Shown here piece by piece: positions 4,459 through 20,067 of a stretch of 64,000 nucleotides of DNA (the stretch's first letter is position 1; every line of letters starts with the position of its first letter). Made by a program: the position numbers and the translations under genes. A model generated the notes under the pieces. It did not search any database. It was not told where the DNA came from and was given only the letters and a program-made list of their open reading frames with translations. The stretch covers positions 22,012 to 86,011 of the IMG/VR virus record IMGVR_UViG_3300042691_018527. One strand, given 5' to 3'. The stretch comes from a virus.

Positions 4459-5210
4459 CAACACAAGACATTGGAATAGCCATATTAGACGTTTATACCG
4501 AGGCAGATTTATTAAATTGTTATAATAGCGTATCTGGACTTGAAAACGTTTTAATAGTTTCTAATACAAAAAATAATTTACCTGATTGTAATTCAAGAAG
4601 ATATGATAACCAAGTTCCTTTTGCAACACTTAGGAATCATGCATTGTCTCAGTTTAGATTAATGGGTTTAAAACATTTCTTTTTGATAAATTCAAACCAA
4701 ATTATTAAAAATAAAAATGTGTTTTCGGATATTATAAAAACAGCAGAGATATTTGGAACGTGGTGCATAACGGGACCATCTGAAAAATTATTGAGTATTG
4801 AAGACGATAAAACAAATACATCTTTAACTATATCTGAAAAATTAAATAGCGATTTTATTTACATATTCAATGGTATAGTTTCCAATGTTGGTTATTTCGA
4901 TGAAAGATTTTTTAACACAAAAGACTTGGATGTACTTGATTATATTTTAAGAATGAGAGAAAAAGGAGTTTATCCTGTAAAAAACTATCATCCAGTTTAC
5001 ACAGAAAACATAGATTCTTCTAATAGTTTGATTCAAAAAATAAACCATAAAGAAATGAATGATGCTGATCAAAGTGTTAATTTATCTTATGCATATTTTT
5101 TACACAAATATCAATATATGCCATCGCAAAATGACCCAGCGTCAGTATCAAAAGATGAACTTTTAAAAAATTTAGAGGAAATTCAACAAAAATACGCTAA
5201 AAATGAATAA
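4455..5210 (+). CDS. GT2-like glycosyltransferase fold with degenerate metal-binding motif
   Basis: This is the first gene of the cargo island (251 residues). It aligns with the two GT-A domains of the next gene: RNHALSQF (the nucleotide-sugar region) and FFLINSNQIIKNKNVF occupy the places of the neighbours' FLMEDDIIIKDEKVF. The acidic EDD triad, equivalent to the DxD metal site, is replaced here by NSN. The family is therefore clear, but catalytic activity is doubtful; it may be a regulatory or carrier subunit, or a decaying paralogue. It overlaps gp47 by four bases and the next gene by eight. Confidence 0.7.
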   Translation: MTTQDIGIAILDVYTEADLLNCYNSVSGLENVLIVSNTKNNLPDCNSRRYDNQVPFATLRNHALSQFRLMGLKHFFLINSNQIIKNKNVFSDIIKTAEIFGTWCITGPSEKLLSIEDDKTNTSLTISEKLNSDFIYIFNGIVSNVGYFDERFFNTKDLDVLDYILRMREKGVYPVKNYHPVYTENIDSSNSLIQKINHKEMNDADQSVNLSYAYFLHKYQYMPSQNDPASVSKDELLKNLEEIQQKYAKNE

Positions 5211-6987
5211 CAAAATAGGTCTTGGTTTAATTACATGTGACAGAATTGACTTTTTTACAAAAAGTTTAAATTCTGTTTTAGCATGTTCAAAGAACATTTC
5301 AAATTTTGAATTAGTTGTAATAAATGATGGAAATGAAAAGATAAAAAGATCCGAAAATATTAAAATAATTCAAACTAATGGAAAAACTGGTGTAGGTAAA
5401 GCTAAAAACTTAGCATTAAAATATCTCATGAAAAAAGAGTGTGAGCATATTTTTTTAATGGAAGATGATATCATTATTAAAGATGAAAAAGTTTTTGATT
5501 TATACATAAACACTTCAAAAATAACTGGCATCAAACATTTAAATTATGGGTTACATGGAAATCACAATAGAGATCCACTTGGATCTCCAGTTGTAAGAAA
5601 GACAGTAACATACAAAGACAATGTTACAAAGATAAATCTATACCCAAACATATTAGGTGCATTTAGTTATTATCATATTGATTGTTTAAACAAGATTGGT
5701 TTGATGGATGAGCAATATTATAATGCAATGGAACACGTCGATCACACATATGTTGCGTTTAAAGCAGGGTTTCACCCACCATTTAGATGGTTTGCTGATG
5801 TATTTGGTTCTGAAAATTATCTAGAAGACATTGTACCAGACCATAAACAGAGTAAAATTCGTAGCGAAGAAAATTTCCAAGAAACTTTTAAAAAGGGATT
5901 AGATATTTTTATAAAAAAACATAATTTTAGTGTAATTGGAAATTACGGACCACCCGAATATCTGTATTCAGAAGAAGAGTGTCTTAAAGACTTAAAAAAA
6001 ATATGGAAGACGCACAATTCAGAAAAAAATAAAGGATATATTCAGACAATTTTAGATAGTTTCTGGACTCCAAAAGCAGATGACATAAAAAAAAATGAGA
6101 TTTTGAATAACACAGTTGAAAATATACAAGAAAAAGAACCAGAACCATTACCTGATCCTGAACCTGAAAAAAAAGAAGTAAAGATGATTAAAAAACAAAA
6201 AGTAAAACAAGGGAAGTATGGGAAAATAGGAATAGGAGTAACAACTTATAATTCTGAAGAATATTTCAAAACATTGTTTAATAGTTTATATGATTGTGAA
6301 TACCAAGAACTTGTAGTTGTTAATGGTGGAGATGAATATAAAGAAAAATATGATTGTGATTGGATACAACACAACTCTAACAACTACCCATCTGTGTGCA
6401 GAAACGACGCAGTAAATTTTTTATTAAATAGAGGATGTGATCATATCTTCTTAATAGAAGATGATATGATTATTAAAGATAAAAACATATTTCAAGAATA
6501 TATCAAAGCATCTATTAATAGCGGATTAAAATATTTTTCTTTTACTAGTATGTCATGGGAATCTGGCAAACCATTCGAAAGAACACCTAGACTGACAGTT
6601 AATTATAAAAACGGCGTAAGTGTTTCTTTTTATAGAAATATGTGCAATGAGTTTACGTATCACCATAAATCATGTTTTGAAAAAACTGGACTATATGATA
6701 CTCAATTTAGAGATCCATTTGACATAGATATGGCATATAGAGAATCTCAAACCGATTATGCTGCACCATTTTGGTGGTTTGCTGACATAACTAATGCTGA
6801 TCAATACATTCAAAACAACGAAAACGCAAAAAGCAGATTACAGTCAGATAGACCAGATGGATCAAGAGAAGAAAGAATAAAAGAACAATGGCAGTTGTTT
6901 TATAAAAAACATGGAAAACTAGTACAAGAAATACCAGATACTAACAAAGAAGATGTTGTTAAATTTTTGAAAAAAACGATGAAATGA
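5203..6987 (+). CDS. Tandem two-domain GT2-type glycosyltransferase
   Basis: The protein is 594 residues with two homologous GT-A domains. Domain 1 (about 1-270) has a GLGLITCDR start and EDD at residues 87-89; domain 2 (about 335-590) has GIGVTTYNS and EDD near 419-421. Both acidic triads are followed by the same I-I-K-D pattern. A charged linker rich in Glu, Pro and Lys (about 300-335) joins them. Family 2 enzymes transfer sugars from nucleotide donors in the cytoplasm; two active sites could add two sugars in succession or elongate a chain. Each domain also contains RWFADV or WWFADI near its end, supporting internal duplication. Acceptor unknown. Confidence 0.85.
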   Translation: MNNKIGLGLITCDRIDFFTKSLNSVLACSKNISNFELVVINDGNEKIKRSENIKIIQTNGKTGVGKAKNLALKYLMKKECEHIFLMEDDIIIKDEKVFDLYINTSKITGIKHLNYGLHGNHNRDPLGSPVVRKTVTYKDNVTKINLYPNILGAFSYYHIDCLNKIGLMDEQYYNAMEHVDHTYVAFKAGFHPPFRWFADVFGSENYLEDIVPDHKQSKIRSEENFQETFKKGLDIFIKKHNFSVIGNYGPPEYLYSEEECLKDLKKIWKTHNSEKNKGYIQTILDSFWTPKADDIKKNEILNNTVENIQEKEPEPLPDPEPEKKEVKMIKKQKVKQGKYGKIGIGVTTYNSEEYFKTLFNSLYDCEYQELVVVNGGDEYKEKYDCDWIQHNSNNYPSVCRNDAVNFLLNRGCDHIFLIEDDMIIKDKNIFQEYIKASINSGLKYFSFTSMSWESGKPFERTPRLTVNYKNGVSVSFYRNMCNEFTYHHKSCFEKTGLYDTQFRDPFDIDMAYRESQTDYAAPFWWFADITNADQYIQNNENAKSRLQSDRPDGSREERIKEQWQLFYKKHGKLVQEIPDTNKEDVVKFLKKTMK

Positions 6988-7757
6988 AAATTTCAATAGG
7001 AATTAATATACATGGCGCATATAAAAGACAAGATCAATGTATTTTTGTTTTAAAAAAACTAAAACAAAAATATCCAAACATAACGTTATATAACATCACA
7101 TTTAGTGATGAATTTAATTTTGAGAAAGAGTTCATACATTTACCATTTTTAAATAAAACAGCATCAGACGTTATAACCGATTCAAATTCCAAAAAACCAA
7201 TAGCAAATCAATTTTTTGATATTTTATCACGAACAGACTGTGATTATTTTTTATTTTTAAACAGTGACATTCTTTTAACTGAAAAGGCGCTTAAATTAAT
7301 AACAAATGATTATGATACATATTGTTTTTCAAGAACCGACGTTGTATCAACTGACAAATTATCAGAAATCGTTCCTTGGCGAATAGAAATAGCTGGGTTT
7401 GATGCATGGGCAGTTAAAAAAGAATGGTGGTTAAACAATTCAGATCATTTTAGTGATGAATACGTGTACGCAGAACACCTTTGGGATGTTTTTTTCACAT
7501 TAACAATGTTTAATAACAGTAAATGCATGTTGGGTAATAAAGAAAATTACATAATACATGAAAAGCATGAATTAAATTGGAATGAAACTTCACCAGAAGC
7601 AACACATAATAGCAATTTATGGACCAAATCTCCATACGGAGAAAGGTGGAGAAAGTTTATATACGAAAATTTAATAAAAAGACAACCCATGGGTCAATTT
7701 TTAACCCCATTAGACAACGAGACTGAATTAGAACAAACATTTTTAACGGTGAAATGA
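6984..7757 (+). CDS. GT-A fold glycosyltransferase
   Basis: This 257-residue protein starts with a SIGINIHGAYKR strand and has DYFLFLNSDILLTEKAL near residues 85-100, where NSD occupies the DxD position. A later block has AWAVKKEWW and EHLWD. This order resembles GT2-like glycosyltransferases, but the match is weaker than for the neighbouring genes. Four-base ATGA overlaps on both sides place it inside the island operon. The sugar and acceptor cannot be told from the sequence. Confidence 0.65.
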   Translation: MKISIGINIHGAYKRQDQCIFVLKKLKQKYPNITLYNITFSDEFNFEKEFIHLPFLNKTASDVITDSNSKKPIANQFFDILSRTDCDYFLFLNSDILLTEKALKLITNDYDTYCFSRTDVVSTDKLSEIVPWRIEIAGFDAWAVKKEWWLNNSDHFSDEYVYAEHLWDVFFTLTMFNNSKCMLGNKENYIIHEKHELNWNETSPEATHNSNLWTKSPYGERWRKFIYENLIKRQPMGQFLTPLDNETELEQTFLTVK

Positions 7758-8410
7758 AAATTAGCGGTTTTTATGAAAAAATATATGTCGTTCATTGGAA
7801 ACCTTTAAAAGACAGAAAAGAATATTTAGAAAAAATTTTTAAAGATCTTGGTTTAAACAAGATGGTTGTTTGGGTTGACCAGTATGAATCAGAAAAAGAC
7901 GTTAAAGATATTAAAAATCCATTTAATTTAAATTTAAAATTATTAATGGTTAATATGTCTCATCTTTTTTGTTATAAAGACCAATTAAAAAACGGATATA
8001 AAAATATTTTAATACTCGAAGATGATATTGACTTTGAACATTTAAACGTGATCGCTTATTTAAATCAAGCAGCAGAAGAGTTTCAACAATTAGATGGTGA
8101 TATTGCTTTTCTTAGTACTTGTTGTGGATTGAATGTAAAAAACATAAAACCACCACAGCTATTATATTACAATCCTAATTATATAACAAGATGTTGTGGT
8201 GCATATATTGTTAATAAAAGATGTGTTGAAAAATTAATAGAATGTGTTATAAATTGTCATGCGATAGATAGAATGTTAAACGCTCTTATACCATTAATAA
8301 ATGTTCGTTGTTTGTGGAGTGGACATCCAATAAAACAAGGTTCAGAAACTGGGAAATATACCAGTGCATTATTGGATATAAGAGACAGTGACGGTAATTA
8401 TACGCTATGA
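7754..8410 (+). CDS. Family 25 glycosyltransferase (LPS-type)
   Basis: The 218-residue protein fits family GT25: an N-terminal IYVVHWKPLKDRKEYLE strand-turn, the ILILEDDIDFE acceptor/metal motif near residues 88-98, and a C-terminal GSETGKYTSALLD block. GT25 members commonly transfer hexoses in LPS core or O-chain synthesis, or glycosylate proteins. Another GT25 gene lies at 12503-13213. The gene is joined by ATGA overlaps to both neighbours. Confidence 0.85.
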   Translation: MKISGFYEKIYVVHWKPLKDRKEYLEKIFKDLGLNKMVVWVDQYESEKDVKDIKNPFNLNLKLLMVNMSHLFCYKDQLKNGYKNILILEDDIDFEHLNVIAYLNQAAEEFQQLDGDIAFLSTCCGLNVKNIKPPQLLYYNPNYITRCCGAYIVNKRCVEKLIECVINCHAIDRMLNALIPLINVRCLWSGHPIKQGSETGKYTSALLDIRDSDGNYTL

Positions 8411-9099
8411 AATTATATACAGTTTTTACAGAATCACATTATGGGATGTTTAAAGATTATTTTATAAAAACATTTCCATTTGATTCAAATTTAGAATTAG
8501 TTGTTAAGTTCAAACCACAAGTATGTCCATCTTCAGAGTTTCAAAGCGAAGGATGGAGAGACACGATGATGTATAAAGTACAGTGTTTTATTGATGCTGC
8601 ATATGAAACAAAAGATGGTGAATGTTTTATGTTTTCTGATCCCGACATTCAGTTTTTTAAACCATTCTCACAAGATGTTATTGAACACTTGGGAGATTAT
8701 GACGCAGCATTTCAAAATGATTTTGGTGGTGGCGTAAACACTGGATTTTTTATAATGCGATCAACATCTAAGACTAGAGCTTTTTTGAAAACAGTACAAG
8801 GAAATCTTCATATGTTTCCAGAAGAACAAGTGTGTTTTAACCATCTAATACAAAATTTTAACGTATATCCAAAAATAGCTTTCCGTGCAAAGTTTTTACC
8901 AAGAGAATATTGGACTTATGGTGAATTGGCAATACAAAGAAGAACACAAGAAAACCAAGTAGGAACGTGGCAAGGACATGAAGATTTTGATTTACCAGAA
9001 AATATAGTAATTCATCATTCAAACTGGACTGTTCCGTTTTCAAATAAAATAAAACTTTTAGATGTTGTTAGAAAGAAATACAATGATAGAAAAATTTAA
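8407..9099 (+). CDS. Nucleotide-sugar transferase with SDPD motif
   Basis: A 230-residue GT-A-like protein. ECFMFSDPDIQFFKP near residues 75-90 provides a D-P-D metal site. GGGVNTGFFIMRS near 115-127 is the typical N-T-G-F substrate loop of nucleotide-diphospho-sugar transferases of the GT8/GT77 kind. The C-terminal HHSNWT segment is compatible with the usual terminal histidine motif. The exact family is not certain. It overlaps the next gene. Confidence 0.7.
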   Translation: MKLYTVFTESHYGMFKDYFIKTFPFDSNLELVVKFKPQVCPSSEFQSEGWRDTMMYKVQCFIDAAYETKDGECFMFSDPDIQFFKPFSQDVIEHLGDYDAAFQNDFGGGVNTGFFIMRSTSKTRAFLKTVQGNLHMFPEEQVCFNHLIQNFNVYPKIAFRAKFLPREYWTYGELAIQRRTQENQVGTWQGHEDFDLPENIVIHHSNWTVPFSNKIKLLDVVRKKYNDRKI

Positions 9100-9970
9100 A
9101 AAATATTTAGTGAAAGCACAATCACCAGCATATCCACCTTACCATACTGGACCTTATTTAGAAGAATATTTTCTATATTATTATTTTAAAAATATAGAAA
9201 AATTTAAAAATGTAAAACATCAATATATACCGGTATTATGGACTGAGTTATATCTACATGTTGCGAGTTTAGTTGATGATTTACAAAATGATTTAAATGA
9301 ATTAGATAAAGACAAGTTTTACTTTACAGTATCTCAACATGATGATGCACCTTTTCAACAACTACCACCAAATACTATTAATTTTTCAGCTGGTGGAAAT
9401 CAACCAAACACAACACCAATTCCTTTAATCTGTAGTCCAATTACAGACGTTAAAGAAGTTGAAAAGGACATATTCTGTAGTTTTGTTGGTAGTATAACAG
9501 CACCATTAGAAGGTTGGGGACTAGTTTCACATAATCTTAGAATGAAGATGTTAGAAACGCTTGTTGATAAAAAAGAATATGTATTAAAACCAAAATCTTG
9601 GACAAATGAAGTTAAAAAAGACCGTCAAGATATGTTCTTGGATTTAACAGCAAGAAGTAAATTTACATTATGTCCTCGTGGATATGGAGCAACTAGCTTT
9701 AGGTTATACGAAGCAATGCAGTTAAAATCAGTGCCAGTTTACATATATTACGAAAAACCACACTTACCTTTTGTTGATAGAATAAACTGGAATGATATTT
9801 GTGTTTTAATTAACATTGATGATATTGGAAAATTAGATGATACATTAAAAAATATTTCAAATGAAAAGTATGCAAATATGGTTAAAACCATGCAAGAAAC
9901 ATATCAAAAATACTTTACACTAGAAGGTATGTGTAATGGTATACTGGAAACACTAGAAAATATAAAATGA
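9083..9970 (+). CDS. Exostosin-like (GT47-type) glycosyltransferase
   Basis: I chose the ATG at 9083 (295 residues) over an in-frame ATG at 9062 because it shortens the overlap with the preceding gene to 17 bases and follows an AGAAAGAAA stretch. The N-terminal part contains DDAPFQQLP. The C-terminal part carries the exostosin-type signature: a TLCPRGYGATSFRLYEAM block (about residues 194-212) followed by PVYIYYEKPHLPF. This is the nucleotide-sugar-binding half of GT47-like enzymes. It lies within the island operon and overlaps the next ATG by four bases. Confidence 0.75.
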   Translation: MIEKFKKYLVKAQSPAYPPYHTGPYLEEYFLYYYFKNIEKFKNVKHQYIPVLWTELYLHVASLVDDLQNDLNELDKDKFYFTVSQHDDAPFQQLPPNTINFSAGGNQPNTTPIPLICSPITDVKEVEKDIFCSFVGSITAPLEGWGLVSHNLRMKMLETLVDKKEYVLKPKSWTNEVKKDRQDMFLDLTARSKFTLCPRGYGATSFRLYEAMQLKSVPVYIYYEKPHLPFVDRINWNDICVLINIDDIGKLDDTLKNISNEKYANMVKTMQETYQKYFTLEGMCNGILETLENIK

Positions 9971-10734
9971 AAAAAATATTATTTGTTATAGCAAAATACA
10001 ACGATGGTAGACAAAAAATATTTGATGAAATTATTTCGCCTAGAAATAAACATTACTGTGATAAACATGGATTTAAATATGTTGAAATTAAAAATGAAAC
10101 GCAGTTAACTTTGTTCAGAAACAATCCAACTTGGTGGAAATTTACAATAGTTAAAGATTTAATTGATAGTAATAAAGTAACTGACGGTGATATTATTGCT
10201 CACATAGACGCGGATATGTATTTTGTAAAGGATGATGTTTCAATAGAAACACCAAAGTCATTTTCTTATTCAATTGACAGTGGTAACACTCATTGTATGG
10301 GGTGGTACAGTTTAAAGATAAACGAATGGACAAAAAATCTTGTAAAAAATATCTTATCCGATGAAAGATTCAATCGTTTAAATGATAAAGTAACGATACA
10401 CGATAGATTTAAAACATATTCTAGTTTCTGGCATGACTTTAGAGAACAAGCAAGTTGGTATAGTTTGGCAGGAATAAAAAGACATTCTGATAAACCATTT
10501 TGGGAATATCCAAATAATGGTTTTTATAGTCAATATGACGAAAATGTTATATACACAATCGATGAACTCAAAGAAAACGTTGAAATATTTAAAACCAGCT
10601 TCAATGTAACAGAATGGGTTGGTGAAAGTTCTTGTGAATTTAACATCAATAACAATGTTAAAAAAGAAGATGTTGTCATAAGACACTTTGCCGGTGGACA
10701 AGACTGGAATAATGTTAGAAATTGGATTCAGTAA
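9967..10734 (+). CDS. GT34-like galactosyl/mannosyltransferase candidate
   Basis: This 255-residue GT-A protein begins KKILFVIAKYNDGRQ, and has DIIAHIDADMYFVKDD with a DAD metal site near residues 76-78. NPTWWKFTIVKDLI before it and HFAGGQDWNN near the end resemble the layout of the GMA12/MNN10 (GT34) group. The family assignment is tentative. It closes the first tight block of glycosyltransferases; the next gene starts 42 bases later. Confidence 0.6.
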   Translation: MKKILFVIAKYNDGRQKIFDEIISPRNKHYCDKHGFKYVEIKNETQLTLFRNNPTWWKFTIVKDLIDSNKVTDGDIIAHIDADMYFVKDDVSIETPKSFSYSIDSGNTHCMGWYSLKINEWTKNLVKNILSDERFNRLNDKVTIHDRFKTYSSFWHDFREQASWYSLAGIKRHSDKPFWEYPNNGFYSQYDENVIYTIDELKENVEIFKTSFNVTEWVGESSCEFNINNNVKKEDVVIRHFAGGQDWNNVRNWIQ

Positions 10735-10738
10735 TGTA

Positions 10739-10771
10739 TTGATTTAAAAAAAAATTATTATACACTAATAT
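10739..10771 (+). promoter_or_regulatory. Weak candidate internal promoter of the island
   Basis: In the 42-base gap after the first glycosyltransferase block there is TTGATT (10739-10744) and TAATAT (10766-10771), five bases before the ATG at 10777. The 21-base spacing is longer than usual for sigma70, so this is weak. It is listed because the position relative to ATG matches other promoters in the window. Confidence 0.25.
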
Positions 10772-10776
10772 ATATT

Positions 10777-11451
10777 ATGAGCATAAACGAAATAACAAAT
10801 TTTTTAAATATTAAAAATTTTAATTTTGCAGAAGGTGGAGTATTTCACGAAGAAGGGCAAGTTGATATATTTTTTAATATATTAAAAAACATAAACACAG
10901 AAGAACCTAAAATGTTTGAATTGGGTAGTTATGAATCGTTTTATTCTGTTGTTTTTAATAAATTTTTCCAAAATAAAAACGTAACAAATGTTTGTTTAGA
11001 AATATGTAAGCCATGTTTAGACATAGGTGTTCAAAATTCAACCAATAATGAATGTAAAAACATGAGTTTTGAATATGCTAGTGTTGGCGAAACAAATTTA
11101 GGGATTTATAACGGAACCACACAATTTAAAGATTTAGAAATATCAGATAAAAAACTAACAGTTAAATATCTATTTGATTTCTATAAAATAGACGTATTAG
11201 ATGTATTACACGTAGACGTTCAAGGTTCAGAGGGGTCGGTTTTAGAAGAAATACAAAAAGAAAAATTGAAAATTAATTACTTTTTTATTAACATACACGA
11301 TGACAGTATAACAAATAATTTTTACGGTTATAGTGTATATGAAAAATGTAAACAAATATTAGATACTTTTGATGTCGATTATATCTATGATAATAGAATT
11401 TATGGTGGATATGGTGACGGCTTAATAGTAGCTAAAACTAAAAAAATATAA
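10777..11451 (+). CDS. FkbM-family methyltransferase
   Basis: A 224-residue SAM-dependent methyltransferase of the FkbM type. FELGSYESFYSVVF near residues 47-60 takes the place of the glycine-rich SAM loop. VLHVDVQGSEGSVLEEI (about 146-162) is the family's D-V-Q/E-G-x-E signature. FkbM enzymes O-methylate sugars or other small molecules, so it probably caps or decorates a glycan made by the island. It is flanked by glycosyltransferases on the same strand. Confidence 0.8.
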   Translation: MSINEITNFLNIKNFNFAEGGVFHEEGQVDIFFNILKNINTEEPKMFELGSYESFYSVVFNKFFQNKNVTNVCLEICKPCLDIGVQNSTNNECKNMSFEYASVGETNLGIYNGTTQFKDLEISDKKLTVKYLFDFYKIDVLDVLHVDVQGSEGSVLEEIQKEKLKINYFFINIHDDSITNNFYGYSVYEKCKQILDTFDVDYIYDNRIYGGYGDGLIVAKTKKI

Positions 11452-11459
11452 AACACACA

Positions 11460-12365
11460 ATGAAAAAAATTAAAATAAACTTTGTAGATTTTTGGCCCAA
11501 TCTTATTAAAGATGACAATTATTTTTATAATTTGTTAAAAACAAAATATGATGTAGAAATAGATGAAGTAAATCCTGATGTTTTGTTTTTTTCGGTTGAT
11601 TATGGTAATGCCAGAGAAAGAGATCGTTATAAAAATTGTTTAAAAGTGTTTTATACGGGAGAAGATGCAGCCCCCAACTGGAATGAATGTGATTTAGCAT
11701 ACACATTCAGACACTCGTCCGACCCTAGAGAATATAGACTTCCGCTATGGGCATTATACTTTAATTGGTTTAACAGACCATATAACGATGATAGAGATCA
11801 AGCATTGTTATGGGACATGAAAGACTTTTTAAATAAGCCCACACAGGTTAATAAACCAAATTTTTGTGGATTTATTAATATGCAACCTAAAGGAAAACGA
11901 GTTGAGTTTGTTCCAAAACTAATGAATTACAAAAAAGTAGATTGTGCTGGTCCGTTATACCACAATACACCATATGTTATTACAGATAGTCGTGGAAATT
12001 TAGCTAGAGGTGATCAAAAATATAAAGTTGATTGGTTATCTTCTTATAAGTTTTCAGTTTCAATGGAAAATTGTTGTTCGCTAGGATATTGTACTGAAAA
12101 AATAATACATGCTATGTTTGCCAACTGTATTCCAATTTATTGGGGTTCAGAATCTGTTAATCAAGATTTTAATGAAAATTCTTTTATAAATTGTCATAAT
12201 TTTTCTTCTGATGAAGAAGTTATAGAAAAAATTAAAGAACTAGATTCAGATAATAGAAAATATGCAAAAATGTTAATGGGAGAACCTTGGTTTAATGATA
12301 ATAAAATACCAGATTTTGTTCAACCTGATTCTGTTTTGACTTTACTTTCAAACAAATTAGATTAA
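11460..12365 (+). CDS. Family 10 glycosyltransferase (fucosyltransferase-like)
   Basis: The 301-residue protein matches GT10. The N-terminal half includes VFYTGEDAAPNWNECDLA. The C-terminal donor-binding half has YKFSVSMENCCSLGYCTEK, then ANCIPIYWGSESV and FINCHNF, the characteristic alpha-1,3-fucosyltransferase motif. Known GT10 enzymes use GDP-fucose, a 6-deoxyhexose donor. No GDP-fucose synthesis genes are in the window, so either the host supplies it or another GDP-sugar is used. It lies in the island operon. Confidence 0.88.
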   Translation: MKKIKINFVDFWPNLIKDDNYFYNLLKTKYDVEIDEVNPDVLFFSVDYGNARERDRYKNCLKVFYTGEDAAPNWNECDLAYTFRHSSDPREYRLPLWALYFNWFNRPYNDDRDQALLWDMKDFLNKPTQVNKPNFCGFINMQPKGKRVEFVPKLMNYKKVDCAGPLYHNTPYVITDSRGNLARGDQKYKVDWLSSYKFSVSMENCCSLGYCTEKIIHAMFANCIPIYWGSESVNQDFNENSFINCHNFSSDEEVIEKIKELDSDNRKYAKMLMGEPWFNDNKIPDFVQPDSVLTLLSNKLD

Positions 12366-12374
12366 TATATATTT

Positions 12375-12503
12375 ATGAGTACAGATTTTGATGAAAATGA
12401 TTTTAGAAAATATAAAAATGATTGTAGTGTTTTTATAGAAACTGGTTCTAATATTGAGTACTATAAATCTTCAAACGAAAACGTTTTCTTAATTTCTGTG
12501 TAA
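12375..12503 (+). CDS. Short 42-residue ORF, possible methyltransferase remnant
   Basis: An ATG at 12375 opens a 42-codon frame that ends in TAA overlapping the next ATG (TAATG), as real genes here do. The stretch SVFIETGSN resembles the start of a SAM-binding strand in the neighbouring FkbM-type genes (for example FIEAGAND in the gene at 14996). It may therefore be a truncated methyltransferase or a small coupled leader ORF. TAATAT lies six bases before the ATG, with TTGACT 21 bases further upstream. Confidence 0.45.
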   Translation: MSTDFDENDFRKYKNDCSVFIETGSNIEYYKSSNENVFLISV

Positions 12504-13213
12504 TGAAACCAGATAAGATATACATTGTTCATTATACAAAATTAAAAGACAGATATGATACTTTAGTTCCGTTTTTAGAAAACTGCAAAATACCTTATGA
12601 GTTTATAACTGAATTTGACCAAGAAGTTTTAGACGAGAAAGTATTAAATAATTTTTATAATCCAGACAAACAAAAATTTGAAAATAAAATTAAAAACTTA
12701 TGGGACTTGAACATCCATAAGTTTCGTCATTTAAATAAACCAGAAATTTCATGCACAATAAAACATCTAGTTGCAATTAAAAAATTATCACAAGAATGTA
12801 AAAATTTTGGTCTAATCTTAGAAGATGACGTTTTGTTTTATGATAATTTTAATAAAAATTATAAAACATATATTGAAAACACACCAGCAGATTGGGATTC
12901 AATTTTTTTGGGTGACGGTTGCGGTATAAATTTTCAAAATGAATCTATAATAAAAAGTAAAAGAATAAACGATAATTTATTTTTAATGCCACATCCAGCA
13001 ACTAACTGCGCAGAGGCATATTTACTAAAACCAGATATAGCTAATAAAATTTATGAATCTTCTATCCCGTTTCAGTTAGTATCCGATTGGGAATTAGCGT
13101 ATCAGTTTTTTAAATTAGATGCTAAAGTTTATTGGTGGTATCCATCCTTAGTAACACAAGGATCTAGAAATGGAAAATATAATTCAACGTTAGATTTAGG
13201 TCAACGACTATGA
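12503..13213 (+). CDS. Family 25 glycosyltransferase
   Basis: A 236-residue GT25 enzyme: KIYIVHYTKLKDRYDTL at the start, SCTIKHLVAIK in the middle, LILEDDVLFYDNF near residues 105-120, and GSRNGKYNSTLDLG at the end. It is a clear relative of the gene at 7754-8410, but the two differ enough to suggest separate substrates. Its start overlaps the preceding short ORF by one base and its end overlaps the GT4 gene (ATGA). Confidence 0.86.
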   Translation: MKPDKIYIVHYTKLKDRYDTLVPFLENCKIPYEFITEFDQEVLDEKVLNNFYNPDKQKFENKIKNLWDLNIHKFRHLNKPEISCTIKHLVAIKKLSQECKNFGLILEDDVLFYDNFNKNYKTYIENTPADWDSIFLGDGCGINFQNESIIKSKRINDNLFLMPHPATNCAEAYLLKPDIANKIYESSIPFQLVSDWELAYQFFKLDAKVYWWYPSLVTQGSRNGKYNSTLDLGQRL

Positions 13214-14298
13214 AAAAAATAGCATTTATTAAATTCGCAGGAATGGCATCTGGTGGTATTGAAAAATATCTTCAAACCATTGCAATCTTGTTAAAACAAC
13301 AAAATCACCACGTTGATTTTTATTACACAAACGCAGCACCCTTTACGAATGGTTGGAAACACCCAGAAAATAGTGAAGAAAGAAGAAAATACGTAAAAGC
13401 TAACGGAATTAATACAATTGAAGTTCATGTTGATTACAAGATAGGAGAAAGAGAGCCTTATGAATGGGTTGGTACTAATTTTTGGGATATTTTTGATGAA
13501 AAAGAATACGATTTTATACAAACCGGAAGAGGTGGATATCCAGAATACCCATTTAATTTAATTAATGAATGTAGTATAATTGACAGTATTCATAGTTTTA
13601 CTGGAGAAGACAAACCAAATATCAAGAAAGCAATATTATTATGTAAATGGCAAGCTGATAGATGGGCAAATAGCGGAGGAAACATTAATAAAGCTGAAAT
13701 AATACCATCGATTGTATATGTTCCAGAGAAAAAGAAATCATCACTAAGAGAAGTATTAAACATTCCAGATGATATGTTCATATATGGTTTTCATCAAGCA
13801 AATAGAGAAGATATTTTTTCACCAGTATCGTTATTATCATATGCTCAAGTACAAAACGACAAAACATGTTTTGTTATATTGGGTGGAAGTCAACAACACG
13901 TTAACTTAGCAAAACAATTAAACTTAAAAAACATGTATTTCTTAGAATTTACAAGTTCTACCGAAGATATTCATGATTTTTTATCCGGAATAGATGTTTT
14001 TGCACACGCAAGATCTGATGGTGAAGTATGTTCTGCTTCGATTATAGAAGCAATGTATCACGGAAAGCCAGTTATAAGTCATCCAGCATTAAACATGGGA
14101 CATGCTGAACAAATAGATGGGTGTGGAAAGGTTTGCAATTCTTTAGAAGAATATGTAAACGAAATGAAACTTTTAAAAAATGAAAAAAATTATTATTCTG
14201 AAAAATCAGAAAAAACATTAGATCGTTATAATGAAAAATACAATTATAAAAAAGTTGAAAAGGCTATAATAGACTTATATAACAATATTGAAAATTGA
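13210..14298 (+). CDS. GT-B (family 4) glycosyltransferase
   Basis: The 362-residue protein has GT-B architecture. The N-domain begins KKIAFIKFAGMASGGIEKYL with the usual glycine-rich loop, and the C-domain contains VILGGSQQH, DVFAHARSDGEVCSAS and IIEAMYHGKPVISHPA, the GT4 donor-site E-x(7)-E-like block. GT4 enzymes are retaining and use many nucleotide-sugar donors, including ADP- and GDP-heptoses in some subfamilies. It is the only classical GT4 in the island. Confidence 0.88.
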   Translation: MKKIAFIKFAGMASGGIEKYLQTIAILLKQQNHHVDFYYTNAAPFTNGWKHPENSEERRKYVKANGINTIEVHVDYKIGEREPYEWVGTNFWDIFDEKEYDFIQTGRGGYPEYPFNLINECSIIDSIHSFTGEDKPNIKKAILLCKWQADRWANSGGNINKAEIIPSIVYVPEKKKSSLREVLNIPDDMFIYGFHQANREDIFSPVSLLSYAQVQNDKTCFVILGGSQQHVNLAKQLNLKNMYFLEFTSSTEDIHDFLSGIDVFAHARSDGEVCSASIIEAMYHGKPVISHPALNMGHAEQIDGCGKVCNSLEEYVNEMKLLKNEKNYYSEKSEKTLDRYNEKYNYKKVEKAIIDLYNNIEN

Positions 14299-14328: not shown

Positions 14329-14994
14329 ATGACATTAGAACAAAAAATTGACGAAATCGAATATCGATTAAAAACAGAATCAAAGATAATGGCAAAACAT
14401 GATTACCATGAAACGTTTCATTTAGCTTGTACGGAATATGTTAAACTAGATGGTCTTTGGATGGAATTTGGTGTATTTACTGGTAGGAGTATTGAACAAT
14501 TTTCAAGAAAAGCACCACTCATATATGGTTTTGATTGTTTCGATGGACTACCAGAGTATTGGGACGAAAATAATCCAAAGGGTTGTTATGGTTTAGGTGG
14601 TCAAATTCCACCAGGTTATATCGTTGGTGAAAATCATTCAATGTTTAATAGCAATCTTCCAACAAATTGGAAGCCTTGGCCAGAAAATGTTAAATTGATT
14701 AAAGGGTATTTTGAAGATACACTTCCAGTTTTTTTAAAAAAATTTGAAGGTGATGTTTCTTTTGTACACATTGATGGTGATTTATATTCATCCGCAAAAA
14801 CAGTTTTGGATAATTTAAAACCAAGATTTAAAAAAGGTTCTATATTATTATTCGATGAAATTGTAGATTATGAAGCTTACAGAGAACATGAAATAAAAGC
14901 ATTTGCCGAGTTCCTATTGGATACTGGGTTTGATTATACACCACTTTTGTATCAAAATTTAGGATATAGTCAAGGTCTATTTGAACTAAAATAA
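14329..14994 (+). CDS. TylF/macrocin-type SAM-dependent O-methyltransferase
   Basis: A 221-residue class I methyltransferase. WMEFGVFTGRSIEQFS (about residues 44-59) is the SAM loop, followed by YGFDCFDGLPEYW. SFVHIDGDLYSSAKTVLD (about 144-161) is the D-G-D-x-Y-S metal/SAM block, and ILLFDEIVDY follows. This order is typical of TylF/MycE-like sugar O-methyltransferases. It probably methylates a sugar assembled by the island. Confidence 0.85.
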   Translation: MTLEQKIDEIEYRLKTESKIMAKHDYHETFHLACTEYVKLDGLWMEFGVFTGRSIEQFSRKAPLIYGFDCFDGLPEYWDENNPKGCYGLGGQIPPGYIVGENHSMFNSNLPTNWKPWPENVKLIKGYFEDTLPVFLKKFEGDVSFVHIDGDLYSSAKTVLDNLKPRFKKGSILLFDEIVDYEAYREHEIKAFAEFLLDTGFDYTPLLYQNLGYSQGLFELK

Positions 14995-14995
14995 A

Positions 14996-15634
14996 ATGTA
15001 TTCATTAAACAACTTGGATGAAAAATTATTAAAATATTTAAATTTTAATAATGGATTCTTTATAGAAGCTGGTGCAAATGATGGCATTAGTCAGTCGAAT
15101 ACTTTGATGTATGAGCAGAAATTCAATTGGTCTGGTTTACTAGTTGAACCTTCTTTCATAAAATATGAAGAATGTAAGAAAAATAGACCAAACTGCATAG
15201 TTGAAAACTATGCACTTGTTAATGAAAATTATAAAGAGAAAACAATTTACGGTGATTTCGATTACTTTGAAAAACACCAGTCTTTATGTGGTCAAATTAC
15301 AAGAAAAGAAGAATATTTCGATGATGATCTAAAGTGGAACCTAGACGAAAAAAATAAAAACAGCAAGATAATAGAAGTTCCTTGTGCAACACTAAACTCT
15401 ATTTTAGAAAAACATAACATAAACCATATAGATTTTTTTAGTTTGGATGTTGAAGGTTATGAAATAGAAGTTTTAAGCGGCTTTAATGTTCAAAAATACA
15501 AACCAAAATATTTTTTAATTGAAACTGGAAACGAATACAGATATAATACTATCTGTTCTTATATGTTTTCTAGAAATTATAAAATATTAGAAAACATATC
15601 GGACGTTGACACACTTTTTACATATGAAAACTGA
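14996..15634 (+). CDS. FkbM-family methyltransferase
   Basis: A 212-residue FkbM protein: FFIEAGANDGISQSNTLMYE (about residues 21-40) is the SAM motif, GLLVEPS follows, and FFSLDVEGYEIEVLSGF (about 146-162) is the family signature. Likely a sugar O-methyltransferase. Its stop overlaps the GmhA-like gene by 11 bases. Confidence 0.88.
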   Translation: MYSLNNLDEKLLKYLNFNNGFFIEAGANDGISQSNTLMYEQKFNWSGLLVEPSFIKYEECKKNRPNCIVENYALVNENYKEKTIYGDFDYFEKHQSLCGQITRKEEYFDDDLKWNLDEKNKNSKIIEVPCATLNSILEKHNINHIDFFSLDVEGYEIEVLSGFNVQKYKPKYFLIETGNEYRYNTICSYMFSRNYKILENISDVDTLFTYEN

Positions 15635-16187
15635 AAAATATATATTGAAATATTTTAGTGAAATTAAACAAATAATAGATTCTATAAAGATAGCTGAAAT
15701 AGATAATTTTATTAACGTAATAAAAAATATAAAACAATCTAATGGTAGACTTTTTGTTTTAGGTGTTGGTGGAAGTGCTGCAAATGCAAGCCATGCTGTT
15801 AATGACTTTAGAAAAATCCTTAATATCGAAACATACGCTGTAACAGATAATGTTTCAGAATTAACGGCTAGAATAAATGACGAATCATGGGAAGTATCAT
15901 ATTTAAATTGGTTAAAAGGAAGTAAACTTTCATCTAAAGATGCCATTTTGGTTTTTTCTGTTGGTGGTGGATCACAAAACACATCTCAAAATCTTGTAAT
16001 GGCAATGAAATATGCTAAAAAGATGAATAGTAAAATACTCTCCGTTGTTAGTAAAGATGGTGGATATGCTAAAAAATTATCAAATGCATGTGTATTGATT
16101 CCTGTTATTGATGAAAAAAGAACAACCGCACATGCCGAAGAATGGCAAGGAATAATATTGCACTTAGTAGTAAATTATTTTTTATAA
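15624..16187 (+). CDS. gmhA: Sedoheptulose-7-phosphate isomerase (GmhA-like SIS protein)
   Basis: A 187-residue SIS-domain protein. The ATG at 15624 is preferred over an in-frame TTG at 15606. GVGGSAANASHAVND (about residues 47-61) is the phosphosugar loop of GmhA, NVSELTARINDESWE (76-90) is a GmhA-specific block, FSVGGGSQNT is the second loop and HAEEWQGIILH ends the fold. GmhA converts sedoheptulose 7-phosphate to D-glycero-D-manno-heptose 7-phosphate, the first committed step to nucleotide-heptoses. The transaldolase, HddA-type kinase and HAD-nucleotidyltransferase follow within 3 kb. Confidence 0.88.
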   Translation: MKTEKYILKYFSEIKQIIDSIKIAEIDNFINVIKNIKQSNGRLFVLGVGGSAANASHAVNDFRKILNIETYAVTDNVSELTARINDESWEVSYLNWLKGSKLSSKDAILVFSVGGGSQNTSQNLVMAMKYAKKMNSKILSVVSKDGGYAKKLSNACVLIPVIDEKRTTAHAEEWQGIILHLVVNYFL

Positions 16188-16192
16188 TATAA

Positions 16193-16768
16193 ATGAACAA
16201 AGTATTCATAGATTGTGGGTCTAATAAAGGACAAGGGTTTCGTTCATTTATTGAAAAATATAATATAGACGAATCTTGGATAATTGAATTATATGAACCA
16301 AATCCACTATGTGATTTAAAAAACAATATAGCTGATTTAAATAATTCTTTAAACATATCAATATATGATTGTGCTATATTTGATTACAATGGAAAAATAA
16401 AATTTTCTCAGTTTTTAGAAAACGACGAAGGTTCATCGGTAAATTGTTTAATGTCAAAAGGTGTATGTAGTGATGTAAATCATCCGTCTTATAGAAAGCA
16501 TGACACAATAATAGAAGTTGAATGTAAAGATTTGTCTGATGTATTGAGCAGATATAATAAAAATGATTTCATTGTAGTTAAACTTGACATAGAAGGTGCA
16601 GAATTTTCAACATTAAGAAAGTTATTAAAAACAAATTCAATTGAAAAAATTAATGACTTATGTGTTGAATGGCACACGGCATATGTAAATAACGAAGATG
16701 ATTCATCATGCAATGAATTAAAAACAAAAATAACAGAAAAAGGAATAAACTTATATGAATGGCATTAA
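16193..16768 (+). CDS. FkbM-family methyltransferase
   Basis: A 191-residue FkbM protein: KVFIDCGSNKGQGFRSF at the N-terminus is the SAM loop, ELYEPNPLC is the next strand and FIVVKLDIEGAEFSTLRKL (about 124-142) is the family signature. It is the third FkbM gene of the island. It overlaps the transaldolase by 14 bases. A TATAAT lies four bases before the ATG (16183-16188) but without a well-spaced -35 box. Confidence 0.87.
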   Translation: MNKVFIDCGSNKGQGFRSFIEKYNIDESWIIELYEPNPLCDLKNNIADLNNSLNISIYDCAIFDYNGKIKFSQFLENDEGSSVNCLMSKGVCSDVNHPSYRKHDTIIEVECKDLSDVLSRYNKNDFIVVKLDIEGAEFSTLRKLLKTNSIEKINDLCVEWHTAYVNNEDDSSCNELKTKITEKGINLYEWH

Positions 16769-17462
16769 TATATACGCAGACACGTCGAATATTAAAGAAA
16801 TATTCGACATATACGAAAACAACAAACACATTACTGGATTTACAACAAATCCAAGTTTAATGAAAAAGGCGGGAATAACTGAGTACATTCCCTTCATTGA
16901 GGAAGTTACTAGTAAAATTTCAGATTTACCATTTTCATTTGAAATTTTTGCCGATGAACTAAATGAAATGGAGTATCAGATTAAAAAGATATCCGAGTTT
17001 GGACAAAACATATACGTTAAAGTACCAATAACAAACACAAAAGGTGAAAGCACTGTTCCTTTAATTGAAAAAATGTCAAGCGAGGGAATTAAAATCAATG
17101 TAACTGCTGTTTTTACAAAAAACCAAGTAGAAAATTTACTTAAAGATTTAATTAACACAAGAACACCAATGATAGTTTCTATTTTTGCTGGAAGAATTGC
17201 GGATACTGGTGTTAATCCGTGTCCATTAATTGAAGAAACGTCAAATTTGACTAGACCAACTGGTTTTATTAAAACATTATGGGCTAGTACTCGCACTATA
17301 TATAACGTTTACGAAGCACAAAATTCAAAATGTGATATTATAACCGTTACACCAGACTTAATACCTAAGTTAAATCTTAAAGATAAAAATTTAGATGAAT
17401 TTTCTTTAGAAACTGTTAAAATGTTTTATAACGACGCTATAAACGTTGGTTATAAACTATGA
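16755..17462 (+). CDS. tal: Transaldolase / fructose-6-phosphate aldolase family protein
   Basis: A 235-residue small transaldolase (TalC/MipB size class). IYADTSN places the conserved Asp at residue 9; TTNPSLMKK lies at 30-38, and NIYVKVPIT places the Schiff-base lysine at residue 89. INVTAVFTKNQ, SIFAGRIADTGVNP and LWASTRTIYNV complete the barrel motifs. Transaldolases make sedoheptulose 7-phosphate from fructose 6-phosphate and erythrose 4-phosphate. Phages, notably cyanophages, are known to carry TalC-type genes, there linked to the pentose-phosphate pathway. Here it sits between gmhA and hddA, so the likely role is supplying the heptose precursor. Confidence 0.9.
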   Translation: MNGINIYADTSNIKEIFDIYENNKHITGFTTNPSLMKKAGITEYIPFIEEVTSKISDLPFSFEIFADELNEMEYQIKKISEFGQNIYVKVPITNTKGESTVPLIEKMSSEGIKINVTAVFTKNQVENLLKDLINTRTPMIVSIFAGRIADTGVNPCPLIEETSNLTRPTGFIKTLWASTRTIYNVYEAQNSKCDIITVTPDLIPKLNLKDKNLDEFSLETVKMFYNDAINVGYKL

Positions 17463-18442
17463 TATTAAGTAGAACACCTTTAAGAATTACATTAGCTGGA
17501 GGCGGAACAGATTTACCTAGTTTTTATTCTAAAAATGAAGGATTTGTTGTGTCAATGGCAATCAACAAGTATATTTATTTAACTTTTAAAGAAGATTTTT
17601 TCGAGACAGATTTAAAATTAAGATACTCACACATAGAAATTGTTAAGAGTGTATATGAATTAAAAAACCATAGAGCAAAGGAAGCTCTTTTATTGCATAA
17701 TATTAAAGATAGTTGTGAAATTAATTCTTGTGCTGATTTACCCTCAAACACAGGACTCGGTTCATCTGGTAGTTTTTTAGTTGGTTTGTTAAATTTGGTT
17801 AGAGAATACAAAAGATTAAACACAGAACCTAAAATTCTTGCAGATGAAGCATGTGATATTGAAATTAATCGTTTAAATGAACCAGTTGGTAAACAAGATC
17901 AATACATTGCTGCTTTTGGTGGACTTAGAATATTTGAAATAGATAAAAATGGAAACGTTTCAGTTAAAAATTTAGAAATTAATCAAAACACACTCAAAGA
18001 ATTAATATCAAATACTTGTATTTATTTTTTGAATATTAAAAGAGATGCATCTGAAGTTTTAGTCGATCAAAAAAATTTAAAAGGAAATTCCGAAGAATTA
18101 TTAAAAATAATCAAAGAACAAGCATATCAAACAGTTGAATATTTAAAAAATTCAGATCTGGATTCATATGGTAAAATAATGGATGACTATTGGAATCTAA
18201 AAAAACAGTTATCAAATAAAATATCTGTTCCAATAGTTGATGAAATATATGAAACAGTAAAAAAAGATTTTAATGTTCTTGGAGGAAAAATAATAGGTGC
18301 TGGTGGTGGTGGTTTTTTAATGTTATATTGCAACAAAAATCATTTAAAACTAGATGAATTTATGAAATCGGCTGGATATTCTAGATTACATTTCAATATA
18401 GATAACACAGGTTCTACAATTTTAGGAAATTTTTCTTGTTAA
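17459..18442 (+). CDS. hddA: GHMP kinase, HddA-type heptose-7-phosphate kinase
   Basis: A 327-residue GHMP kinase. The start, SRTPLRITLAGGGTDLPSF, is characteristic of HddA-type D-glycero-D-manno-heptose 7-phosphate 1-kinases. The ATP loop is LPSNTGLGSSGSFLVGL (about residues 94-110), and GGKIIGAGGGGFLMLYC is the C-terminal GHMP motif 3. The product would be heptose 1,7-bisphosphate. It overlaps the transaldolase by four bases and is followed after one base by the HAD-nucleotidyltransferase gene. Confidence 0.9.
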   Translation: MILSRTPLRITLAGGGTDLPSFYSKNEGFVVSMAINKYIYLTFKEDFFETDLKLRYSHIEIVKSVYELKNHRAKEALLLHNIKDSCEINSCADLPSNTGLGSSGSFLVGLLNLVREYKRLNTEPKILADEACDIEINRLNEPVGKQDQYIAAFGGLRIFEIDKNGNVSVKNLEINQNTLKELISNTCIYFLNIKRDASEVLVDQKNLKGNSEELLKIIKEQAYQTVEYLKNSDLDSYGKIMDDYWNLKKQLSNKISVPIVDEIYETVKKDFNVLGGKIIGAGGGGFLMLYCNKNHLKLDEFMKSAGYSRLHFNIDNTGSTILGNFSC

Positions 18443-18443
18443 C

Positions 18444-19178
18444 ATGATATATTGCTTTGATTTAGATAATACTTTATGTTTAACTGAACATAAAAAATAC
18501 GCAGATGCAACACCAATTTTAAATAGAATACAACGAGTAAACGAGTTGTATGATAAAGGTGATTATATAAAGATATACACCGCAAGAGGAATGACAGAAT
18601 TCTCTGGTTGTCTTCCTAAAATATTAGACAAATATTGGGTAATAACAAAGAACCAATTAACAAATTGGGGCGTAAAACACCATGAATTGATATTAGGAAA
18701 ACCATCATATGATTTTTTTGTAGACGATAAAGCATGTCACAGTGATTTTTATTTTAAACCTTTGAATAGAACATATGGTGTAATAATAGGATCTTTTGAT
18801 GTTATACACCCTGGTTATGTAAAAGCATTTAGAGAAGCAAAGGAACACTGTACACATCTTACAGTTTTTTTACACGAAGACCCATCAATTGATCGACCAA
18901 ATAAAATCAAACCGGTTTTGTCGGTTAAAGAAAGAACAGAAATATTATTGGCAATCAAATATATTGATGATATTATACCATATAAGACAGAAGAAGAACT
19001 TCTATCTTTATTAGAACAAAATTTAGACATGATCAATATTAGATTTGTTGGAGATGATTACGAATTTAAAGATTTTACGGGTAAACATCTTAATATACCA
19101 ATACACGTATTAAAAAGAGATCATGGATGGAGTTCAACAAAATATAAGAATTTAATTTATGAACAACTCAAAAAGTAA
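18444..19178 (+). CDS. HAD phosphatase - nucleotidyltransferase fusion
   Basis: A 244-residue two-domain protein. Residues 1-105 are a HAD domain: YCFDLDNTLC (DxD nucleophile at 5-7), KIYTARG, a lysine in LILGKPSYD and FFVDDKACH as the acidic motif. Residues about 110-244 are a cytidylyltransferase-fold domain: IIGSFDVIHPGYVKAF, in which HPGY replaces the usual HxGH, and HGWSSTKYKN as the S-S-T-x-x-R/K block, like the HldE C-domain. In the heptose route the two halves would perform GmhB-like dephosphorylation to heptose 1-phosphate and then activation to a nucleotide-heptose. The nucleotide (ADP, CDP or GDP) cannot be read from the sequence. Confidence 0.82.
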   Translation: MIYCFDLDNTLCLTEHKKYADATPILNRIQRVNELYDKGDYIKIYTARGMTEFSGCLPKILDKYWVITKNQLTNWGVKHHELILGKPSYDFFVDDKACHSDFYFKPLNRTYGVIIGSFDVIHPGYVKAFREAKEHCTHLTVFLHEDPSIDRPNKIKPVLSVKERTEILLAIKYIDDIIPYKTEEELLSLLEQNLDMINIRFVGDDYEFKDFTGKHLNIPIHVLKRDHGWSSTKYKNLIYEQLKK

Positions 19179-20067
19179 TATAGTAGTAACCGGTGGATGT
19201 GGATTTATAGGAAGTCATTTGGTTGATGCGCTAGTAGATGATTATATTGTTTATGTTATTGATGATGAATCAGCAGAAGCAAATGATGTTTTTTATAAAA
19301 ATAAAAAAGCAAAATACATAAAAGAAGATATTTGTAATGCTGATAAGCTAAATTCTTCAATATTTAAAAATACAAAAGCTATATTTCATTTAGCAGCAGA
19401 ATCTAGAATTATACCATCAATTGAAAATCCGATAAAAGCAACAATGTCAAATGTTGTCGGTACCACTTCTCTTTTAAATTTATGTAAAAAATATAATATA
19501 CAAAAATTTATTTATTCATCAACCTCCGCAGCATATGGATTAAAAGCAGATATACCAACTGATGAAAACAATCAAATTGATTGTTTAAATCCTTACTCTG
19601 CTACTAAATTTGCTGGAGAAGAAATGATAAGAATGTTTACTAAATTATATAAGGTAGATTCTTGCATTTTTAGATACTTTAACGTGTTTGGGGAAAGATC
19701 ACCAACCAAAGGTTTATATGCGCCGGTTGTTGGTATATTCTTAAACCAATATAAGAATAAACAAAAACTCACTGTGGTTGGCACAGGACAACAAAAAAGA
19801 GATTTTGTACATGTTAGCGATGTTGTTAATGCTAATTTACTAGCATTAAATTATAAAAAAGCATTAAATGGAAATGTTTTTAATATTGGTAGCGGAAAAA
19901 ACTACTCAATAAACCAAATAGCAAGAATGGTAGACAAAAATATAAAATATATACCTAGTCGCCAGGGTGAATGTAAAAACACTCTAGCTGATATTACAAA
20001 AGCAAAAAAAATATTGAAATATTCACCAAAAATTGATATAAAAGATTGGATTAAAACACAAAAATAA
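19159..20067 (+). CDS. NAD-dependent nucleotide-sugar epimerase/dehydratase (extended SDR)
   Basis: A 302-residue extended SDR: TGGCGFIGSHLVDAL (about residues 11-25) binds NAD, FHLAAES follows, YSSTSAAYG supplies the catalytic serine region and NPYSATKFAGE the Y-x3-K pair near 147-151. FRYFNVFGERSP and RDFVHVSDVV match GalE/WbpP-like nucleotide-sugar epimerases more than HldD. As last gene of the island, it probably epimerises the nucleotide-heptose or another donor. It overlaps the preceding gene by 20 bases and ends seven bases before gp46. Confidence 0.85.
   Translation: MNNSKSNIVVTGGCGFIGSHLVDALVDDYIVYVIDDESAEANDVFYKNKKAKYIKEDICNADKLNSSIFKNTKAIFHLAAESRIIPSIENPIKATMSNVVGTTSLLNLCKKYNIQKFIYSSTSAAYGLKADIPTDENNQIDCLNPYSATKFAGEEMIRMFTKLYKVDSCIFRYFNVFGERSPTKGLYAPVVGIFLNQYKNKQKLTVVGTGQQKRDFVHVSDVVNANLLALNYKKALNGNVFNIGSGKNYSINQIARMVDKNIKYIPSRQGECKNTLADITKAKKILKYSPKIDIKDWIKTQK

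Follow-up and report, generated by a model that had tools for sequence, protein, structure and literature searches.

A phage gene cassette for a predicted heptose-type nucleotide sugar carries a phosphatase fused to a nucleotidyltransferase

Results

A recurrent five-enzyme cassette

The window analysed here is a 64,000-nucleotide stretch of viral DNA comprising bases 22012–86011 of the 86,011-base virus record IMGVR_UViG_3300042691_018527. At positions 15624–20067 it encodes a GmhA-like isomerase, a transaldolase, an HddA-type kinase, a HAD phosphatase fused to a nucleotidyltransferase, and a short-chain dehydrogenase/reductase (SDR), which probably constitute a phage-encoded heptose-type nucleotide-sugar pathway that supplies the glycosyl- and methyltransferases encoded alongside in one cluster. 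These five enzymes were named in an original prediction made from the DNA letters and their translations, and all of them are genuine. The open reading frames (ORFs) are intact, lie on the plus strand and are spaced by −20 to +6 nt; the Pfam models SIS_2, TAL_FSA, GHMP_kinases_N/C, CTP_transf_like and Epimerase each score above their gathering thresholds, and the HAD half is recognised by EcbF-BcbF (44.5 bits, below the cut-off of 162) and by the PDB entries 9iqw and 1xpj. An FkbM methyltransferase gene within the same stretch (16193–16768) had been overlooked.

The predicted fusion is real and widespread. A viral scan with the fusion as query returned 127 relatives, of which 80 were kept, and gene-order analysis found the full fusion in 60 non-redundant contigs, nearly all of them viral. 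HddA-like, GmhA-like and SDR genes accompany it in 52 of the 60, and in 44 of the 45 contigs in which both flanks are covered. Chance does not explain the arrangement, given that dozens of viral contigs carry the set. The commonest order, kinase-isomerase-fusion-SDR (type A, 34 contigs), contains no transaldolase; type B, in which a transaldolase is also present, accounts for 11 of the 52, the window among them. In type-B viral loci the transaldolase adjoins the kinase and is near the isomerase, and every such locus covering the region also has glycosyltransferase family 4 (GT4) and TylF genes as in the window. One further locus (L076) has the HAD domain fused to the isomerase instead, with transaldolase and kinase genes alongside. 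The viral scan with the kinase alone as query gave no relatives. The set had been thought unusual for a phage; this does not hold, as about 50 non-redundant contigs carry it and enzymes for nucleoside diphosphate (NDP)-heptose have already been published from phages.

Photosystem genes were found in 4 of 19 records, all of type A, and in none of the eight type-B records tested; because of these genes, the four type-A records look like cyanophages. A scan of genome contigs with the fusion query gave seven loci, one of which (L089, a 13-kb contig binned in an Acidimicrobiaceae metagenome-assembled genome) has the full fusion. Just upstream of the L089 cassette (5770–7207), two ORFs were read by eye as an apparent PfkB-type kinase and as a stand-alone nucleotidyltransferase with FFERFGGYSST at its end. 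They apparently represent an HldE-type pair, with two heptose-like routes side by side, which suggests that the pair and the cassette make different products.

Enzyme families of the cassette

The nearest solved fold to the HAD half in a Foldseek search is 9iqw, titled phage HY126 D-arabinose 1,5-diphosphate phosphatase AfhF. As this enzyme acts on a sugar bisphosphate, the HAD half fits the kind of step that the pathway needs. Residues D6, D8, T10, K86, D94 and D95 are kept in all 33 cassette fusions aligned, and T46 in 32 of them. In several cyanophages, including S-CAM3 (L006:8597–8917), proteins of about 100 residues annotated as "phosphoheptose isomerase" match the HAD phosphatase domain, and that annotation appears to be wrong.

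The nucleotidyltransferase half features FDVIHPGY, ER164 and R225xHxxS(S/T)T. It is nearest to ethanolamine-phosphate cytidylyltransferase (ECT) and TagD and less near to HldC (profile scores of 96, 80 and 50 bits, the last for 5x9q/5xf2), with TagD 1coz as the best fold match. PDB entry 5x3d, considered as HldC, was rejected; it is the Fom1 cytidylyltransferase domain, and the Burkholderia pseudomallei HldC is 5xf2/5x9q. Compared with the TagD end motif RTxGISTT, the R, the S and often the T are kept and His stands at position 3 (TIGR01518, 46 bits versus 165.4). The assignment as an ADP/CDP-type nucleotidyltransferase stands as to the cytidylyltransferase fold, but the half looks TagD-like and lacks the published heptose-nucleotidyltransferase motif. 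As predicted, neither textbook branch pairs a GHMP kinase and an enzyme of the cytidylyltransferase fold in this way.

For the isomerase, a predicted model with a mean local confidence (pLDDT) of 95.8 was used in the fold search, and all top 29 Foldseek ranks are GmhA entries with template-modelling (TM) scores of up to 0.87 (5lu5 and 1x94 were assigned by other evidence). The best PDB sequence matches are likewise all GmhA. The best family for the kinase is NF049969, at 147.2 bits and below the curated cut-off of 600. Against the PDB, the kinase profile (A8) scores highest with solved HddA enzymes (4n3o, 192; 3k85, 188; 4usm, 184; 4usk, 181 bits), the next group being fucokinase at 108 bits. 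The original prediction was to be given up if profile searches placed the kinase or the isomerase in non-heptose families; since both are nearest to heptose families by profile and fold, its own test does not refute it.

The transaldolase reaches 288.5 bits with TIGR02134 and so passes the equivalog cut-off of 281.95. Its Lys89, in a VKVP motif, aligns together with Glu63 and Phe144 with solved transaldolases, E63 and F144 with residues of transaldolase 3s0c. We take these two positions to be Glu and Phe in transaldolases and Gln and Tyr in fructose 6-phosphate aldolases (FSA). Solved transaldolases also score above solved FSA enzymes with the family profile.

The SDR is, as judged from its sequence, a generic GalE-type epimerase, and nothing ties it to heptose 6-epimerisation. 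It scores 175 bits with galE and 138 with heptose_epim, both below cut-off (274.6 for the latter, the HldD heptose 6-epimerase model TIGR02197), and its best PDB match is the UDP-glucose 4-epimerase 4zrm. The overall prediction of an activated, possibly epimerised heptose is partly supported: the kinase and isomerase are nearest to heptose enzymes, and corrections concern the SDR and the H-D-E-H metal site of the isomerase described below, among other points.

Bacterial counterparts

Three sets of bacterial genomes yielded close transaldolase relatives in 2 of 249, 4 of 247 and 3 of 396 genomes, and six of the nine share a cluster with a GmhA-like isomerase. The gene order in L177 is transaldolase, GmhB-like, GmhA-like, HddC/MurU-like and HddA-like; L178 has the same gene kinds plus an SDR. 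A transaldolase with GmhB-like and GmhA-like genes is found in L176, L173 and L193, the last of which also has an HddA-like gene. The window isomerase and transaldolase are 43–49% identical to their counterparts in L175–L178, and the kinase is 40–42% identical in the transaldolase-bearing clusters. The transaldolase had been called unusual; its bacterial relatives are few, but six of the nine found belong to this kind of heptose-type cluster.

In these rare bacterial clusters the transaldolase, isomerase and kinase of the cassette go together with GmhB- and HddC-like enzymes, so the fusion seems to have taken the place of the latter two in the phages. The simplest reading of these sequences is that the phage cassette would be a bacterial heptose-type module in which the fusion replaces GmhB and HddC. 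Searches of 299 and 247 bacterial genomes (546) found each half of the fusion, and among the strongest matches, which were those listed, none spanned both halves. The HAD domain also lies inside proteins of about 420–540 residues in several bacterial genomes (L106, L108, L110–L112, L114–L117).

Observations that weigh against a heptose product

Several observations weigh against the proposed pathway. The transaldolase is the only cassette enzyme that reaches a curated equivalog score; the isomerase falls far below the NCBIfam GmhA equivalog cut-offs (PRK13936, 43 versus 276 bits; TIGR00441, 41.7 versus 209.45). The heptose-nucleotidyltransferase motif (F/L)XXGXSTT is absent, with R at position 1 in 33 of 33 fusions. 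Enzymes of the TagD type act on alcohol phosphates, not on sugar 1-phosphates. In Bacteroidota, the loci that hold near relatives of the nucleotidyltransferase half have neither HddA nor GmhA, and a GT9 heptosyltransferase was not found among the Pfam-scanned genes of the cluster.

The metal site of the isomerase also departs from the canonical one. It consists of H57, D61, E172 and H180, and this H-D-E-H set replaces H-E-Q-H (E to D, Q to E) in all 33 aligned cassette isomerases. The canonical zinc ligands of GmhA (H64, E68, Q175 and H183 in B. pseudomallei numbering) have been described as completely conserved, and the single Q175E mutant of the B. pseudomallei enzyme was called inactive (PMC5705639). 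In favour of a heptose-type pathway, isomerases with H-D-E-H also adjoin HldE-like genes in the bacterial loci L182 and L184.

The gene cluster and its genome context

The window encodes a T4-like core of DNA polymerase, UvsX, tail sheath, terminase and SbcC-like gp46 (phrogs), and the Pfam metallophosphatase at 3424 is read as gp47. Between the gp47- and gp46-like genes, a 15.6-kb plus-strand gene run (4455–20067; ORFs, Pfam, TIGR and phrogs) forms a glycan cluster, of which the five-enzyme set is the distal end (Table 1). Spacings of −20 to +30 nt extend from 13210 through to the gp46-like gene, and the tight run stops 6 nt short of that gene. The claim that the five genes form one unit is accordingly borne out by the conserved set and the tight spacing, but the unit does not start at 15624, because the same run continues upstream through FkbM, TylF, GT4 and further genes.

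Table 1. Features of the glycan cluster, in window positions
Feature	Position	Strand	Basis
Upstream part: GT2, two GT25, Nucleotid_trans, GT47, GT10 FucT, methyltransferase, unknowns	4455..13213	+	Pfam; TIGR01444 below cut-off; phrogs
GT4 glycosyltransferase	13210..14298	+	Pfam Glycos_transf_1, Glyco_trans_1_4; homologue in all type-B loci covering the region
TylF-like O-methyltransferase	14329..14994	+	Pfam TylF, Methyltransf_24; in all covered type-B loci, zero type-A
FkbM methyltransferase, 11-nt overlap with isomerase gene	14996..15634	+	Methyltransf_21, 75.9 bits; spacing
SIS isomerase, GmhA-like, predicted to convert ketose phosphate to aldose phosphate	15624..16187	+	SIS_2; GmhA best PDB sequence and fold matches
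FkbM methyltransferase between isomerase and transaldolase	16193..16768	+	Methyltransf_21, 49.7 bits; TIGR01444 above cut-off
Transaldolase, TIGR02134 family	16755..17462	+	TIGR02134, 288.5 bits
HddA-type GHMP sugar 1-kinase	17459..18442	+	NF049969 best family; solved HddA enzymes nearest
HAD phosphatase half of fusion (about residues 1–110), predicted sugar-bisphosphate phosphatase	18444..18773	+	Foldseek 9iqw; conserved catalytic residues
Cytidylyltransferase-fold half of fusion (about residues 111–244)	18774..19178	+	CTP_transf_like; TagD 1coz best fold match
SDR nucleotide-sugar epimerase (YxxxK), generic GalE-like	19159..20067	+	Epimerase, 186 bits

The GT4 enzyme is a candidate user of the cassette sugar. 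No RmlA-type HddC guanylyltransferase turned up in the cluster genes that were scanned, and the remainder of the virus was not searched exhaustively. In the upstream part, the gene at 11460–12365 encodes a GT10 alpha-1,3-fucosyltransferase with a FucT_N domain (Pfam), which suggests that the host supplies a GDP-fucose-like donor. Matches to the T4-type late promoter TATAAATA are below chance across the window and absent from the glycan cluster; the count therefore says little about the timing of expression. Recent import of the cluster, considered on base composition, was dropped, as its G+C of 0.27–0.29 resembles much of the record.

The DNA polymerase encoded in the window shares only about 30% identity with those of the best-listed isolated phages. 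Between the gp46- and DNA polymerase-like genes lies a 436-residue protein (21903–23213) that has no Pfam match and is kept in L096 and L097. Among the record bases before the window, a 1406-residue fibre-like protein (L007:1006–5226, minus strand) contains repeats such as NNTSANWNSVYSY and is very rich in N-x-S/T; it could be a glycan acceptor.

Discussion

From the gene order, families, conserved catalytic residues, fold and recurrence as a unit, we infer the reactions as follows, together with a chain length of C7, the anomer, the nucleotide and the target glycan. With fructose 6-phosphate as donor of a C3 unit and erythrose 4-phosphate as acceptor, the transaldolase would yield sedoheptulose 7-phosphate, which the GmhA-like isomerase would convert to an aldose heptose 7-phosphate. 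The HddA-type kinase would phosphorylate C1 to give heptose 1,7-bisphosphate, the alpha anomer by analogy. The HAD half would then strip the 7-phosphate, the fused TagD-like half would add a nucleoside monophosphate, most likely CMP, and the resulting NDP-heptose would be epimerised by the SDR. Given the TagD likeness and the missing (F/L)XXGXSTT motif, the nucleotide is a guess, CDP being the likeliest by analogy. The adjoining GT4 and O-methyltransferases may finally place the sugar into a methylated glycan. A glycan as target is favoured by the glycosyltransferase and methyltransferase genes nearby, and its most likely site is the surface of the host or the virion.

The same enzyme kinds could in principle make a longer sugar. 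If the acceptor of the transaldolase were ribose 5-phosphate, as for LmbR in lincomycin biosynthesis (PMC5854111), the product would be an NDP-octose. The lincosamide set LmbR, LmbN, LmbP, LmbK and LmbO matches the cassette by enzyme kind (transaldolase, isomerase, kinase, phosphatase and nucleotidyltransferase; PMC12945683 Table 1), although its product is GDP-octose and the gene table contains no HAD-nucleotidyltransferase fusion. The altered metal site of the isomerase also favours an octose, and it is difficult to account for a dedicated transaldolase where common sedoheptulose 7-phosphate suffices, as the larger type-A group does without one. However, type-A cassettes presumably start from sedoheptulose 7-phosphate because they lack the transaldolase, but their kinase, isomerase and fusion belong to the same families, and the GmhB- and HddA-type enzymes of the transaldolase-bearing bacterial clusters score high on heptose models. 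An octose product is considered unlikely.

The HAD fold match prompted another reading, in which the activated sugar is attached to phage DNA, as is arabinose in RB69-like phages. The T-even arabinose-nucleotide pathway (RB69; HY126 AfhF, 9iqw) shares with the cassette the HAD phosphatase family and the logic of phage-encoded isomerase, kinase and nucleotidyltransferase, and RB69-like clusters carry isomerase, epimerase, kinase and NTP-transferase genes (PMC13390438). T-even phages have this HAD family too: in phage dhabil, a gene with the annotation thymidylate synthase-like is close to a HAD gene. The window cluster, moreover, sits amid replication and recombination genes. That pathway nevertheless supplies a DNA modification that requires modified cytosine, and no GmhA- or HddA-like gene is present at the dhabil locus. 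No thymidylate-synthase-family gene was found in the 86-kb record and 18 related virus records, several of which are fragments, which argues against a modification of the T-even type, and the neighbouring GT2, GT4, GT10, GT25, GT47, FkbM and TylF genes resemble glycan-chain assembly. This reading was set aside as quite improbable.

A further reading, in which the transaldolase serves carbon flux in general, as cyanophage talC does, and lies by happenstance beside an ordinary phage sugar-nucleotide cluster, is very improbable. Transaldolases are indeed common in cyanophages, which contribute most of 402 phage-record matches, but those listed are only about 32% identical to the window enzyme, a TIGR02134 member that keeps its place beside the kinase in type-B loci and whose bacterial relatives sit, in six of nine cases, in the same kind of cluster. 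It is scarcely credible that the fusion, like TagD, yields a CDP-polyol or another product that is not a heptose, with the isomerase and kinase serving another sugar: the TagD and ECT likeness and the close bacterial relatives in loci without heptose genes fit it, but where both flanks are covered the fusion almost always accompanies HddA and GmhA, and its HAD half also occurs fused to the isomerase.

The preferred heptose-type pathway has clear relatives. The Campylobacter jejuni capsule system likewise uses a GmhA-type isomerase, an HddA-type 1-kinase, a HAD bisphosphatase and a nucleotidyltransferase in the same reaction order (PMC10680097). In the phage cluster, the HAD and TagD-like fusion replaces both GmhB (HAD-IIIA) and HddC (RmlA-type), a transaldolase is added, and the metal site of the isomerase is altered. 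Heptose lipopolysaccharide genes have been reported in Synechococcus phage SynMITS9220M01 (PMC7378029). Its module has an HddA-like kinase, a GmhA-like isomerase, the same HAD-nucleotidyltransferase fusion (46.5–50% identical) and an SDR in one run, but no TIGR02134 transaldolase, and in that phage the fusion carries the annotation "hypothetical protein". The same phage also encodes (L002:8310–12159) a second HddA-like kinase (286.7 bits), followed by annotated nucleotidyltransferases and two epimerases.

Functional viral NDP-heptose isomerase, kinase and nucleotidyltransferase are known from Tang et al. 2024 Science, as related in PMC11461863 and PMC11573728. In those papers, the phosphatase is reported absent in viruses, and three nucleotidyltransferase architectures, none with a phosphatase, and the motif (F/L)XXGXSTT are described. 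The window cassette differs from these enzymes in that it has a phosphatase, fused to the nucleotidyltransferase, and lacks the motif. Thus neither heptose genes in a cyanophage nor functional NDP-heptose enzymes of viruses are new. New, within the scope of the searches, are the virus-enriched fusion that would supply the missing phosphatase step, a form of the cassette with the transaldolase together with its bacterial counterparts, and the altered metal site.

More tentatively, and with somewhat less than even confidence, the virus-born fusion of a HAD bisphosphatase with a TagD-like cytidylyltransferase may define a third route to activated heptose, in which GHMP-type 1-phosphorylation is followed by coupled dephosphorylation and CMP transfer to give CDP-alpha-heptose or CDP-octose. 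Many aquatic phages might in this way coat the host or the virion with a methylated sugar foreign to the host. Work on pelagimyophages suggests that alteration of the host O-chain excludes co-infecting phages (PMC7029224).

The isomerase poses a mechanistic question, as its natural metal site holds the Q-to-E change that alone inactivates GmhA. The transaldolase link in phages and bacteria makes the choice between heptose and octose directly testable. A phosphatase fused to a nucleotidyltransferase is present in dozens of viral contigs, and the papers cited above say that viruses lack the phosphatase step. If the proposed pathway is correct, the fusion would complete the viral route and serve as a marker gene for heptose-synthesising phages, and the fused enzyme may be of use in making rare NDP-sugars.

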